Shown here: positions 23,932-29,454 of the stretch, piece by piece
How the letters are laid out: the number at the start of each line of letters is the position of its first letter
Position numbering within the stretch: position 1 is the stretch's first letter
Origin: Acetofilamentum sp.
GTDB lineage: Bacteria > CAIWAD01
DNA: 35,876 bases
Assembly: GCA_020726405.1 (NCBI GenBank)
Contig: DYSB01000008.1
Coordinates: 1 to 35,876, forward strand
Direction of reading: 5' to 3'
Position numbers and translations under genes: made by a program
Notes under the pieces: generated by a model
What the model was told of the DNA's origin: nothing
Databases searched by the model: none
The model's input: only the letters and a program-made list of their open reading frames with translations

Positions 23932-25245
23932 ATGGACCTCTCTCTCATACAACGCGCCGGCTGCGTGGGCATGGGCGGCGCGGGCTTCCCCACCCACGTC
24001 AAACTGGCCGTCCGGGTGGACACGCTGCTCATCAACGCCGCCGAGTGCGAGCCACTGCTGCGCAAGGACAACGTCGTCATGCAGCACTTCGCCGAGGGCG
24101 TGGCCCAGGGCATCCGGGTCGCCGCGGAGTTCACGGGCGCCAGCCGCGTGATCGTGGGCATCAAGGACAAAAACAAGGCCTCCATCGCGGCCATGCGCGC
24201 CACCAGCCTGGGTCCGGCGGGCAGCGGGCTCTACGACGTGGGCATCCTGGGGGATTTCTATCCCGCCGGGGACGAGGTCACACTGGTCTACGAACTCACC
24301 GGCCGCGTGGTGCCGCCCGCCGGGTTGCCCCTGGACGTGGGCGTGGTGGTGCTGAACAACGAGACCGCCCTCACCCTGCACGAGGCCCTGCAGGGCAAAC
24401 CCGTGACCCACTCCTTCCTCACGGTCTCCGGCGCAGTGCGACAGCCCATGACCGTGCGCGCCCCGCTGGGCACATCCTTCCACGACCTGGTGGAGGCCGC
24501 CGGCGGCACGAAACTCAAGGACTGGGTGATTCTCGACGGCGGGCCGATGATGGGCCGCATCGTGGAGGATCCGGCCACGCCGGTGGTCAAGACCAGTTCG
24601 GGCGTCATCGTCTTGCCCCGCGACCACCCGTACGTGACACAAGAACTGCGCAGCCGCGAGGCCAAGCACCGCATCGGCAAGTCCGTCTGCGACCAGTGCA
24701 GCCTGTGCACGCAGCTCTGCCCGCGCTACCTGCTGGGCCATCCGCTGGAGCCGCACCAGGCCATGCGCCAGCAGTTCGTCACCGAGTACCCGGCCCACAG
24801 CCGCTGGGGCCAGATCTGCTGCGAGTGCGGCATCTGCACATTGTTCGCCTGCCCGGAGGGTCTCTTCCCCCGCGAGGCCTGCCAGGACTCCAAGCGCAGC
24901 CTGGCCGCCCTGGGCGAACGCTACAACGGGCCGAAACTCGTCACACCGCACCCCATGTACGAACACCGGCGCATCCCCACAAAAAAGCTGCTGGCCCGAT
25001 TGGGCTTGTCGCGTTTCGAGCACGACGCGCCCTGGACGCCCTGGCCGGGCACGTCCGCGCCACTGCGCCTCAAGCTGCAGCAGCACATCGGCGCGCCGGC
25101 CCTGCCGCTGGTGCGCGAGGGCGAGCACGTGCAGGCCGGGCAGGTCGTGGCCGCGCCGCCGGAAGGCAAACTGGGCGTCCCCATCCACAGCCCGCGCGCT
25201 GGCCAGGCGGTCAGCGTCACCCAAGCGGAGATCGTGATCCAATGA
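23932..25245 (+). CDS. pduS: PduS/RnfC-like flavin and iron-sulfur electron-transfer protein
   Basis: A 437-residue protein starting at ATG 23932 behind AGGAAGG. The upstream part of the open frame is not used. An N-terminal Gly-rich flavin/NADH site (CVGMGGAGFPTHVK, then INAAECEPLLRKD) is followed by a SLBB-like segment and two 4Fe-4S motifs, CDQCSLCTQLCP and CCECGICTLFACP, as in PduS and RnfC. PduS is the cobalamin reductase/electron carrier inside propanediol-type microcompartments. The C-terminus (GEHVQAGQVV...) is a biotinyl-like hammerhead. The next gene, pduT, overlaps by four bases, which is the pairing that favours PduS over RnfC. Confidence 0.85.
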   Translation: MDLSLIQRAGCVGMGGAGFPTHVKLAVRVDTLLINAAECEPLLRKDNVVMQHFAEGVAQGIRVAAEFTGASRVIVGIKDKNKASIAAMRATSLGPAGSGLYDVGILGDFYPAGDEVTLVYELTGRVVPPAGLPLDVGVVVLNNETALTLHEALQGKPVTHSFLTVSGAVRQPMTVRAPLGTSFHDLVEAAGGTKLKDWVILDGGPMMGRIVEDPATPVVKTSSGVIVLPRDHPYVTQELRSREAKHRIGKSVCDQCSLCTQLCPRYLLGHPLEPHQAMRQQFVTEYPAHSRWGQICCECGICTLFACPEGLFPREACQDSKRSLAALGERYNGPKLVTPHPMYEHRRIPTKKLLARLGLSRFEHDAPWTPWPGTSAPLRLKLQQHIGAPALPLVREGEHVQAGQVVAAPPEGKLGVPIHSPRAGQAVSVTQAEIVIQ

Positions 25246-25829
25246 TGCGCAACCAGAACAGCCAATTCACCAACGAGCGCCCCGACAGCGCGGTCGGGAT
25301 CATCGAGTTCAGCAGCATCGCGCGCGGCATCGAGGCGGCGGACCACATGCTGAAGACCGCCGAGATCCGCCTGCTTGTCTCACGGACGATCTGCCCGGGC
25401 AAGCACATGAGCATGATCGCCGGGGACACGGCGGCCGTGCGCAGCGCCATCGACGCCGCCGCCGAGCTGGGCGAGCGCGAGGTGGTGGACACCTTCATGA
25501 TCCCCAACCTGCACCCGGACGTGATCCCGGCCGTGGAGGGCACAGTCATGTACGGCCAGATGGAGGCGCTGGGGATCATCGAGAGCTTCTCCGTGGCCAG
25601 TCTGATCGAAGCCGCCGACCAGGCCGCCAAAACTGCGAAGGTCAAGCTGCTGGAGATCCGCCTGGCCATGGCCATCGGCGGCAAGGCCTTCGTCACCATG
25701 ACCGGCCAGGTGGCCGCCGTGCGCGCCGCTGTGGAGGCGGGCGCCGCCAAGGTGAGCGCCAAGGGCCTGCTGGTGAACAAGGTGGTCATCGCCAATCCGC
25801 GCCCGGAAGTGATGCGCGACCTGATCTGA
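25242..25829 (+). CDS. pduT: BMC-T tandem shell protein PduT-like, Fe-S type
   Basis: A 195-residue protein with two BMC domains: residues ~16-100 (AVGIIEFSSIARGIEAADHM) and ~108-195 (ALGIIESFSVASLIEAADQA). Cys 51 in SRTICPGKH corresponds to the PduT cysteine that holds a 4Fe-4S cluster at the threefold pore of the trimer, so it may pass electrons across a microcompartment shell to or from PduS. Starts at ATG 25242 (ATG 25245 is also possible), overlapping the pduS stop. Its last codons (VIANPRPEVMRDLI-stop) are inside the first copy of a 58-bp tandem repeat. No other shell gene is in the window. Confidence 0.9.
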   Translation: MMRNQNSQFTNERPDSAVGIIEFSSIARGIEAADHMLKTAEIRLLVSRTICPGKHMSMIAGDTAAVRSAIDAAAELGEREVVDTFMIPNLHPDVIPAVEGTVMYGQMEALGIIESFSVASLIEAADQAAKTAKVKLLEIRLAMAIGGKAFVTMTGQVAAVRAAVEAGAAKVSAKGLLVNKVVIANPRPEVMRDLI

Positions 25830-25948
25830 GCGAAGCGCGGTTTGGTACGCCAATCCGCGCCCGGAAGTGATGCGCGACCTGATCTGAGCGAAGCGCGGTT
25901 TGGTACGCCAATCCGCGCCCGGAAGTGATGCGCGACCTGATCTGAGCG
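25790..25948 (+). repeat. 58-bp tandem repeat (2.7 copies) covering the pduT 3' end
   Basis: Copy 1 spans 25790-25847, copy 2 25848-25905, and a third partial copy 25906-25948. They appear identical. Each full unit includes the pduT tail codons, its TGA and a downstream stretch. The unit length is not a multiple of three. Copies 2 and 3 lie after the stop, so the protein is unaffected. At each junction an 11-bp stem with one mismatch forms: GCGCGGTTTGG/CCAATCCGCGC with TACG loop, at 25835-25860 and 25893-25918. The array ends just before hepT. Confidence 0.9.
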
Positions 25949-25957
25949 GGAGCGAGA

Positions 25958-26374
25958 ATGACTCTCAATGTCGACAGCCTGGAAAAGGCCGTGGCCGCCC
26001 TGGAACGATCGGTGAAGGCGGTGGGCGACTCGACCCTTCAGCCGGATGATCCGCTGTTGGAGGCCGCTCAGGCGGGGATCGTGCAGCAATTCGAGATCGC
26101 ATACGAGCTGGCGAGGAAACTGCTGCAGCACTGGTTGAGCCTGAATCAGGGGCTGGCGGAGGACGACCTGCCCACTCGCCGGGATCTGTTCCGTCGTGCG
26201 GGTCGGGCCGACCTGCTGGCAGACCCGGACCTGTGGTTCGAGTTCGGTAACGCGCGCAATCTGACTGCCCACACCTACGACGATAAGCAAGCCCAAGCCG
26301 TTCGAGATTTGGCCCTCCGTTTCCTGACCGAGGTCCGCTCGGTCTTGCAGAGACTCCGAGCGCAGCATGATTGA
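25958..26374 (+). CDS. hepT: HEPN-family RNase toxin HepT
   Basis: A 138-residue helical HEPN protein (also called the HI0074 nucleotidyltransferase-substrate-binding family). The RX4HXY motif is intact near the C-terminus as RNLTAHTY. The Arg and His form the RNase site, and the Tyr is the residue AMPylated by the partner antitoxin in studied HepT/MntA pairs. ATG 25958 is preceded by GGGAGCGAG. It overlaps the next gene, mntA, by eight bases. It follows directly on the tandem repeat. Acts in the cytoplasm as a growth-inhibiting RNase. Confidence 0.88.
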   Translation: MTLNVDSLEKAVAALERSVKAVGDSTLQPDDPLLEAAQAGIVQQFEIAYELARKLLQHWLSLNQGLAEDDLPTRRDLFRRAGRADLLADPDLWFEFGNARNLTAHTYDDKQAQAVRDLALRFLTEVRSVLQRLRAQHD

Positions 26375-26666
26375 CCTGCGTCCCGAGCACTTGGCCGAGG
26401 TCAAGCGGATCCTGGCATTCGATGTGCCGGAGTGCCGCGTGCTGGTCTTCGGTTCCCGGGTGACAGGAAAGGCCCAGCCGCTCTCAGATCTGGATTTGGC
26501 CCTGATCGGCCCGGCGAGACTGTCCGATCGGCGCCTGGAGCATTTGCGCAACATGTTCTCGATCAGCGAGCTGCCGATTCTGGTGGACGTGGTGGACTGG
26601 CACCGCCTCGCGCCCGAGTTCCGCGCCCTGGTGGAATCCCAGTGCGAGGAATTGCCGCTCGACTGA
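26367..26666 (+). CDS. mntA: MntA-type nucleotidyltransferase antitoxin
   Basis: A 99-residue minimal nucleotidyltransferase with the exact GSX10DXD signature (GSRVTGKAQPLSDLD), followed by LALIGPARL and IDVVDW-like ILVDVVDWHRL. This class (HI0073-like) uses ATP to AMPylate the HepT tyrosine and so neutralises the toxin. It starts inside hepT (eight-base overlap), the order usual for this module. The 182-bp space after it (26667-26848) leads to creD on the same strand. Confidence 0.88.
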   Translation: MIDLRPEHLAEVKRILAFDVPECRVLVFGSRVTGKAQPLSDLDLALIGPARLSDRRLEHLRNMFSISELPILVDVVDWHRLAPEFRALVESQCEELPLD

Positions 26667-26778
26667 GGCTGGCGCGACTGTGATGTCCGACCTGATCCAT
26701 ATCCAGCCCGCCCGGCGAAGGAAACTCCACACCGGCAGAACAAAGTCGCGCGTCCGCTGCTTGAAGGGCCCGTGTTTC

Positions 26779-26848: not shown

Positions 26849-28159
26849 ATGCTGCCAACCGATCCGCTGGCCCGGCTGGGTCAGAGTCTCCGTCAATCCG
26901 CGACCTTCCGCCTGCTGGGCATCGGCGCGCTCATCCTGCTCCTGCTGATTCCCGCCACCATGTTGGGCGAGCTGGTCCGCGAGCGCAGCCAGCGCCGGGA
27001 CGAGGCGCTGATGGAGATGCGCGCCAAGTGGGGCGACCGTCAGACCATCATCGGGCCCGCGCTGGCCATCCCCGTGCTGCAGCGGGTGCCGGGGCAGACC
27101 GCGGTCACGCGCCGGATCGTCCACCTGCTGCCCAGCGAGCTCGACGTGCAGGGCCGGCTGGCCCCCGAGCGCCGGCGCCGCGGCTTGTTCGAGGCCGTCT
27201 TCTACCGGGCCAGCCTGGAATTGGCGGGCCGCTTCGATCCCGCCGAGCTGGTGCTGCCCGGCGTAGCGCCCGGGGACGTGCTGTGGAAGGAAGCTGTGCT
27301 GGAACTGGGGATCTCGGACCTGGGCGGCGTGGCCGAGCGGATCGAGGCCCGCTACAACGGCCTGGACTGCCGCGTCGACCCCGGTCTCTGCGGTCCGGGA
27401 CTGGCAGCCTCGGGCGTGCGCGCCCTGCTGCCGCCGGCCGGCGCGGGCCAGGACAGCTTCTTGCTCAAGCTCGAACTCAACGGCAGCGAGGAGCTGCTGG
27501 TCAGCCCCGTGGGCCGCGCCACGCGCCTGAAGCTGGGCGCGCCCTGGGCCGATCCCAGTTTCAGCGGCGGCTTCCTGCCCGCGGAGTCGCAGATCGACAA
27601 GGCCGGCTTCACGGCCCGCTGGCAGGTGCTGGACTTGAACCGCAACTTCCCCCAGGTGCTGCAGGCCCCCAGCCCGGAGCTGGCCAACGCGGCCTTCGGC
27701 GTGCGCCTCTACGACGCCAAGGACGTCTATCAGCAGGCGACGCGCGTGGCCAAGTACGCCGTGCTCTTCCTGGTGTTCACCTTCGCCGCCTTCTTCCTGA
27801 CGGAGACCACCAGCCGACGCAGCGTCCATCCCATCCAGTACCTGCTGGTGGGCCTGGCCACGCTGCTCTTCTACCTGCTGCTGCTGGCGCTGGGCGAGCA
27901 CGTCGCGTTCGGCCTGGCCTACCTGCTCGCGGCGGGTTGTATCACGGCCCTGATCGCCGGCTACTCGCGCGCGGCCGTTGGCGGCACGGGTTTCATGTGG
28001 ATCGTGGGCGCCCTGCTGGCGACGCTGCACGGTTACCTCTACCTCGTGCTGCAGCTGGAAGATTACGCGCTGTTGATGGGGAGCCTGGGCCTGCTGGCCG
28101 TGCTGGCCGCGGCCATGTTCTTCACCCGGCGGGTCGATTGGTACGGGAAGGAAAACTGA
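26849..28159 (+). CDS. creD: Inner-membrane protein CreD
   Basis: A 436-residue CreD-family membrane protein. An N-terminal transmembrane helix (about residues 24-40, IGALILLLLIPATML), LGELVRERSQRRDEA, a large periplasmic domain with IIGPALAIPVL and FSGGFLPAESQIDKAGFTARW, and about five C-terminal helices (from KYAVLFLVFTFAAFFLTETTS). In enterobacteria CreD belongs to the CreBC regulon and affects envelope stress and colicin resistance; its molecular role is unclear. No creB or creC is in view. ATG 26849 lies behind GAGGTGACAC. Expected length about 450, so this is complete. Confidence 0.92.
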   Translation: MLPTDPLARLGQSLRQSATFRLLGIGALILLLLIPATMLGELVRERSQRRDEALMEMRAKWGDRQTIIGPALAIPVLQRVPGQTAVTRRIVHLLPSELDVQGRLAPERRRRGLFEAVFYRASLELAGRFDPAELVLPGVAPGDVLWKEAVLELGISDLGGVAERIEARYNGLDCRVDPGLCGPGLAASGVRALLPPAGAGQDSFLLKLELNGSEELLVSPVGRATRLKLGAPWADPSFSGGFLPAESQIDKAGFTARWQVLDLNRNFPQVLQAPSPELANAAFGVRLYDAKDVYQQATRVAKYAVLFLVFTFAAFFLTETTSRRSVHPIQYLLVGLATLLFYLLLLALGEHVAFGLAYLLAAGCITALIAGYSRAAVGGTGFMWIVGALLATLHGYLYLVLQLEDYALLMGSLGLLAVLAAAMFFTRRVDWYGKEN

Positions 28160-28260: not shown

Positions 28261-29454
28261 CTACCGCGCCAGTTTGTCCCGCAGCAGGTCGGCGTAGGCG
28301 CGCGGCTCGGCCGGCACGCCGTAGAGGCCCAGGCCGCGGATGATCCGCTCCAGCTCCGCGCGCGCCGCGGCGGGCTCCTCGCCCGCGCGCAGCACCAGCT
28401 CCAGCTCCACGAAAGTGCCCAGCCCGGCCACGGCGTCCAGGTGCAGGCGCGTGCGGCCCAGTAGCACCAGCTCGCGACCCTTGCGCACGTGCTGGCCCAG
28501 GCCGTGGACGCGGCTCAGTTCCGCGTGCAGGGCATCGGGGTCGGCCACGGGCGTGCGCTCGTAGTCGGAGACGCGGGCATCGCTGGTATCCTCGCGCAGG
28601 TAGCGGATCAGCTCCGCATGGAGCAGCGCCTGGCCGTCCGGCAGGTGGCGGATCTCCCGGCGCAACTTCAGCCGCGTGCCGTCGGCGCAATTGTAGAACT
28701 GGTCGTCCTGGGTGAGACGTCCGTCCAGTTTGCCGCCCAGAGTGCCGGCCCGCCGCTTCACCTCGTCCAGGGCCTGGCAGGGCAGCTTGAGTTCAAGGTT
28801 GCGGCCCTTCTCGGCTTCGCGTTCCCCGTTGAACAGATCGGGGACCGGGGCCGGGACCGGGGCCGCGCCCTTGGCAGGCCCACCCTTGGCGGGCGCGCTG
28901 TTGGGGGCCGCACTCTTACGCGTCCGGGCCGGTGGTGCCAACTCGGTAGGGGCTTCATTCTTCATGGCTGCGCTTCCCATTCCAGTTCCACGTTGCAAGG
29001 CCGTCACACCCCGCCGGGCCCGGGCCACGGCGGCCACGGCCAGGCGGTCGCAGCGCTCGTTATCGGCATTTCCGGCATGCCCCCGCACCCAGCGCCAGTC
29101 CACTTCGTGAAAACGGGTCTGATCCCAGAGGGCGCGCCAGAGATCCTCGTTCTTCACCGGCTCGCCGGACGAGGTCCGCCAACCCTTGCGCATCCAGCCG
29201 TGGATCCAGCTGGTGATGCCGTTGCGCAGATACTGGCTGTCCGTCCACAGCTCCACGTGACTGGGCTCCGACAGCTCTTCCAGGCCACGCAGCGCGGCCA
29301 GCATCTCCATCCGATTGTTGGTGGTGGCGGTCTCGCCGCCGCTCAGTTCCAGTTCGCCCTCCGCCGTGCGGATCAGGCAGGCCCAGCCGCCGGGACCGGG
29401 GTTGCCCGAGCAGGCGCCGTCTGTGAACAGAGTCGCGCGCGGCAGTTCAGGCAT
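28261..29454 (-). CDS. RNase HI fused to a CYTH triphosphate-tunnel domain
   Basis: A 397-residue two-domain protein. Residues 1-~148 are ribonuclease HI with all catalytic acids: D12 (FTDGACSGNPGPGGWA), E50 (NNRMEM), D72 (WTDSQYL), D136, plus His126 in VRGHAGN; it removes RNA from RNA-DNA hybrids. An Ala/Pro/Lys linker (~150-210) leads to a CYTH domain (~218-397) of the CyaB/ThTPase type, with LELK at 220-223, RLKLRRE, LGRTRLHLD, FVELEL and AYADLL. The usual ExExK entrance motif reads NLELK, so the first Glu is Asn. The ATG lies inside the end of the rlmI-like gene (8-bp overlap). The fusion is uncommon to my knowledge. Confidence 0.9.
   Translation of the reverse strand: MPELPRATLFTDGACSGNPGPGGWACLIRTAEGELELSGGETATTNNRMEMLAALRGLEELSEPSHVELWTDSQYLRNGITSWIHGWMRKGWRTSSGEPVKNEDLWRALWDQTRFHEVDWRWVRGHAGNADNERCDRLAVAAVARARRGVTALQRGTGMGSAAMKNEAPTELAPPARTRKSAAPNSAPAKGGPAKGAAPVPAPVPDLFNGEREAEKGRNLELKLPCQALDEVKRRAGTLGGKLDGRLTQDDQFYNCADGTRLKLRREIRHLPDGQALLHAELIRYLREDTSDARVSDYERTPVADPDALHAELSRVHGLGQHVRKGRELVLLGRTRLHLDAVAGLGTFVELELVLRAGEEPAAARAELERIIRGLGLYGVPAEPRAYADLLRDKLAR

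Follow-up and report, generated by a model that had tools for sequence, protein, structure and literature searches.

A 58-bp tandem repeat at the 3′ end of pduT as a probable scar of cassette insertion

A tandem array formed from the pduT gene end

The window analysed here, a stretch of 35,876 nucleotides, is contig C205 of a 281-contig, 3.06-Mb assembly with a completeness of 91.65% (genome G000). Its forward strand carries a pduT-like BMC shell gene (25242–25829; 195 amino acids by translation; Pfam BMC, E = 3.6e-45), the product of which is 94% identical in amino acids to its counterpart in the congener G002 and 89% identical to that in the congener G001. The end of this gene is taken up by the one strong tandem array of the window (25790–25948), for which TRF gave a period of 58 bp, 2.7 copies, 100% matches and no indels. 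A repeat search of the window placed the starts of the copies at 25790, 25848 and 25906.

The 58-bp unit consists of the last 40 bp of pduT, including the TGA, and an 18-bp spacer. In the first unit (25790–25847, + strand) the gene part is the final 40 bp of the pduT open reading frame itself (25790–25829), followed by the spacer GCGAAGCGCGGTTTGGTA (25830–25847). The second unit (25848–25905, +) is 100% identical and out of frame with pduT, and the third (25906–25948, +) is a partial unit of 43 bp in which the spacer is absent and which enters the leader of the downstream hepT-like gene, its TGA (25943–25945) lying 12 bases upstream of the hepT ATG. Copies 2 and 3 do not lengthen PduT, since a period of 58 bp is not divisible by three and the stop codon is already reached in copy 1.

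These results bear out an original prediction, made from the letters alone, of an identical 58-bp repeat in 2.7 copies that overlaps the pduT stop. That prediction also proposed looking for single copies of the unit elsewhere, and a search across the 3.06-Mb assembly returned the unit at the array site only. No other perfect array spanning a gene end was present in the 266 kb of G000 that were sampled, and nothing else comparable, whether as gene-end arrays or as nearby gene-end duplications, turned up in that sample or in 386 kb sampled from G002.

A HepT/MntA pair as cargo behind the array

Directly behind the array lie a hepT-like gene (25958–26374, +; PF08780, E = 1.2e-28) and an mntA-like gene (26367–26666, +; PF01909, E = 4.2e-8). 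Class I HepT/MntA pairs are defined by the motifs RX4HXY in HepT and GSX10DXD in MntA (PMC7641770). Both occur in the translations of these adjacent PF08780 and PF01909 genes, as RNLTAHTY and GSRVTGKAQPLSDLD, respectively, so the two genes would constitute a toxin–antitoxin pair of this class as judged from sequence. Here the pair is the cargo and not the repeat. The repeat, predicted to lie between pduT and hepT, indeed stands ahead of a HepT/MntA pair. Further along are a creD-like gene (26849–28159, +; Pfam CreD, E = 2.3e-132) and, convergent to it, a gene encoding RNase H and CYTH domains (rnhA–CYTH; 28261–29454, −), which Pfam, sequence identities and the gene order of G001, where it is the next gene after pduT, mark as the conserved right-hand neighbour.

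Hairpins at the unit junctions

The spacer is complementary to the start of the unit, from which hairpins would arise wherever one unit meets the next. The repeat search, with folding, located one such hairpin at 25835–25860 (+; stem 25835–25845/25850–25860) and an identical one at 25893–25918 (+; stem 25893–25903/25908–25918). Each has 11 stem positions, comprising ten Watson–Crick pairs and one T–T mismatch around a TACG loop, as had been predicted.

It had further been suggested that these hairpins could end or stabilise the transcript or tune toxin expression. As a functional RNA element they would terminate the pdu transcript or shield it, and would part it from hepT, with copy number tuning expression of the toxin. 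The position between the end of an operon and a toxin gene would suit such a role, and a single hairpin folded alone reaches −16.9 kcal/mol (z = −2.5). However, the fold of the whole array is ordinary (z = −0.68), with long-range pairs replacing the local hairpins in its minimum-energy structure. A Rho-independent terminator consists of a GC-rich stem and then a U-tract, and here CCGGAAGTG comes after the stem instead; no intrinsic terminator was called in the array, and no Rfam family matched it. The equivalent stem in G002 folds to −5.2 kcal/mol, as compared to −16.9 kcal/mol here, its outer and inner pairs being broken with no compensatory change. The hairpins therefore look incidental: a terminator role is not supported, a regulatory role has no support, and we consider a functional RNA element highly improbable.

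The duplication is shared with a congener

We compared the locus across a phylum sample of five genomes, G000 to G004, of which three were usable for the comparison of cassettes. In G002, pduT is followed by an 18-bp spacer, TCCATGCCCGGTTTGATT, then by another 40-bp copy of the pduT end, spaced exactly 58 bp from the first, and then by hepT–mntA. The spacers of G000 and G002 agree at 12 of 18 positions (P = 7e-5 by shuffling), a match equalled or bettered by 0.04% of the 18-mers in the region. In G001 (LaPlata_bin-1558), pduT is followed by the convergent rnhA–CYTH gene with 52 bp between them; there is no duplication behind pduT and no hepT in the whole genome. No repeat was found in G003, where the contig stops about 270 bp past pduT, or in G004, which belongs to another family, and the genes returned by a GTDB scan for pduT, the two known relatives apart, were all distant, with at most 51% identity.

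What lies between pduT and rnhA–CYTH thus varies among the three genomes, from nothing in G001, which also lacks the creD-like gene at this site, to hepT–mntA with creD in the window and hepT–mntA with genes for an ATPase and an AlbA_2 protein in G002. The two defence-like genes of G002 between mntA and rnhA–CYTH (L053:1-3536; G002:C99, about 41,440-45,540) would make this gap a small defence hotspot.

Judged by these alignments, the 58-bp duplication is older than the split between the G000 and G002 species and goes with the cassette, because G002 has the same period and a related spacer ahead of hepT–mntA and G001 is without both. The original prediction had read the identity of the copies as a sign of recent expansion. 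The two 40-bp pduT copies differ at 6 of 40 positions in G002 and at none in the window, indicating later amplification or homogenisation in G000, or merging by the assembler. A recent last step in this genome is consistent with that claim; the duplication itself predates the divergence from G002.

The mntA genes at the two pduT loci are 70% identical, and none of the others in the comparison exceeds 47%, which points to a hepT–mntA locus common to both genomes. The HepT proteins at these loci are only 45% identical, no closer than, or hardly above, those of distant phyla. Vertical descent of hepT was tried as an account and set aside, as the identity between G000 and G002 barely exceeds that to distant phyla. 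The simplest reading of these sequences would be that both loci go back to one insertion, after which hepT changed fast or was partly replaced.

A silently diverged pduT end in G002

A further piece of pduT, 110 bp of its 3′ end (93% identical), starts directly after the mntA stop codon in G002 and precedes an AAA ATPase gene (PADLOC Ppl, E = 2.2e-85) and a Schlafen/AlbA_2 gene. Relative to G002 pduT, this copy has eight differences in 108 codon-aligned bases. They occupy six codons, and none alters the protein, not even a serine switch from AGC to TCG. With G000 and G001 as reference, changes in four codons (six bases) belong to the branch of the copy itself, and the probability that six random changes would all be silent is about 4e-4. 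Since all of its differences are silent, the 110-bp copy evolved as coding sequence, in a working pduT elsewhere, and was imported with its cargo or before it. The second 40-bp copy of G002 carries two amino-acid changes and is not purely silent, so the comparison demonstrates import for the 110-bp copy alone.

The same place behind mntA in the window holds what may be the remnant of another pduT 3′ end (26680–26697, +; 16 of 18 bases). Although a pattern search would be expected to give only 0.04 such matches window-wide at up to three mismatches, the score in a gapped local alignment, 14, is ordinary and not distinguishing, and we treat the relic as suggestive only.

These data bear on whether the array arose by local tandem duplication alone, through slippage at the end of pduT with no tie to cassette import, its adjacency to hepT–mntA being coincidental. 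The identity of all copies, the short unit and the 11-position quasi-palindrome at the junction would fit hairpin-aided slippage, and the amino-acid changes in copy 2 of G002 are as for a local non-coding copy. However, the duplication is common to G002 and is missing along with the cassette in G001, and slippage cannot yield the silent-only 110-bp copy of G002 beyond the cassette. We regard local duplication alone as unlikely.

Copy number and assembly

Elsewhere in G000, a 100-N scaffold gap (L063:7955-8054; G000:C180) lies between identical 55-bp flanks, which suggests that the final assembly used k = 55. This 55-bp perfect repeat was rejected as a comparable array, given that it borders the N gap. 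Exact repeats within the pduT array extend up to 101 bp. With a likely k of 55, k-mers alone therefore cannot count the 58-bp units, and the number of extra copies is the assembler's estimate, resting on pairing or coverage. Assemblers can merge diverged copies as bubbles, and slightly diverged copies could have been merged here. There is thus some chance, although a minor one, that one extra copy, another number of copies or slightly diverged copies have been rendered as 2.7 identical units, an outcome that would be compatible with a recombination scar. One duplication junction or more must be genuine, as such a junction is hard to obtain without a true duplication, and a pure assembly artefact is unlikely given the diverged homologous duplication in an independent genome, G002.

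A probable insertion scar behind pduT

We conclude that the array is probably a recombination scar left in this little-known lineage by the insertion of defence-type gene cassettes behind pduT and later multiplied or homogenised, and not a purpose-built element. In this account, the gap between the convergent pduT and rnhA–CYTH genes would take in toxin–antitoxin and defence-like cassettes on donor DNA from relatives, in which the donor's own pduT 3′ end is joined to cargo (pduT end, cargo, rnhA). An illegitimate joint on the pduT side and homology on the other side would leave a piece of pduT ahead of the cargo. A first event, before the split of G000 and G002, would have produced the order pduT, 18-bp spacer, 40 bp of pduT and hepT–mntA, and with it a 58-bp direct repeat. 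The 40-bp repeats of the window genome would then have undergone unequal exchange or replication slippage, by which a unit was added, the copies were homogenised, or both. As every such exchange would restore the pduT C terminus and stop codon and retain the start region of hepT, copy number could drift without harm to either gene.

Consistent with this account, both G002 cassettes and the hepT–mntA of the window follow a pduT piece, these pieces differ in length, and no copy of the pduT end lies before the native right-hand flank, a pattern that fits one homologous and one illegitimate joint. The scar reading also has points against it. The insertion is present in just two genomes of the five-genome phylum sample, the post-mntA relic in the window is weak, and the 45% identity of HepT would need fast evolution or partial replacement. 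In addition, no flanking direct repeats of this kind were found at the remaining hepT loci of either G000 or G002, so gene ends are not a regular accompaniment of such cassettes.

When elements enter the 3′ end of a gene, they rebuild that end, and direct repeats stay behind. If the pduT 3′ end were an att site of this sort, the copies would be att remnants of tandem elements since stripped of their integrase, and copies do precede hepT–mntA in both genomes and the next cargo in G002. However, the open reading frames between pduT and rnhA–CYTH include no recognisable integrase or mobility gene in either genome, the copies vary in length (40 versus 110 bp) with differing left ends, and an attR would require a copy before the right-hand flank. 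The pduT site thus presents neither a recognisable integrase nor a core repeated at both ends, and site-specific integration appears very doubtful.

A pattern similar to this scar is insertion with long target duplication, known from the restriction–modification genes of Helicobacter pylori (Nobusato et al. 2000, cited in PMC1643837 and PMC3031569). As outlined in the citing papers, a module is bordered by long, variable direct repeats of neighbouring sequence, found by comparing related genomes, and the repeats allow amplification by unequal crossing-over. Here the HepT/MntA pair would be the module, present in G000 and G002 and missing at the same place in G001. In G002, direct repeats flank the insert, with 40 bp on the left and 110 bp on the right; the right side in the window has the doubtful 18-bp relic. 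In contrast to the system as outlined there, the left repeat is tandem with a spacer, and the right-hand copy of G002, differing only silently, was imported and not copied from a local target.

The locus also recalls the minimal mobile elements of Neisseria (Saunders and Snyder 2002, cited in PMC2649163), which, as summarised in the citing paper, are alternative cassettes between two conserved chromosomal genes, have no mobility genes of their own and rely for their exchange on homology in the flanks. Here, too, what separates a fixed pair of conserved genes varies between the three usable genomes, whereas a clean homologous exchange in the flanks is not seen: the cassettes are stacked, with partial flank copies remaining between them. 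Homology-facilitated illegitimate recombination (PMC3240628 and references therein), in which one joint is homologous and the other is not, would give such partial copies before cargo, and we propose it for this lineage by likeness of pattern; the possible microhomology at the G002 mntA joint is only 1–2 bp. A literature search joining pduT with toxin–antitoxin systems found no matches.

More tentatively, the pduT 3′ end may be where defence cassettes land repeatedly in this phylum, with the pduT piece that each brings along serving as its own homology handle, the stacked gene ends logging arrival order and donors, and the array keeping the gene end intact; we consider this broader reading possible but not likely. 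If the scar account is right, leftover gene ends would provide a readable log of the entry of toxin–antitoxin and defence genes without mobility genes, and the silent differences in each copy would indicate the donor allele. The general mechanisms involved are already known. A striking hairpin-bearing tandem repeat can be a scar, and it is the genome of a relative, not the fold, that decides.

Two other repeats were seen in these genomes. In G002, an irregular array of GCCCTGGTG-type units (L080:7088-7384; G002:C35; TRF period 44 × 6.8) has GCGTCGACCAGGT blocks embedded in it. In G000, an 81-bp repeat (L060:3595-3762; G000:C120) of 2.1 copies at 96% carries CCTCCCCC and GGGGGAGG motifs and reaches the contig end.
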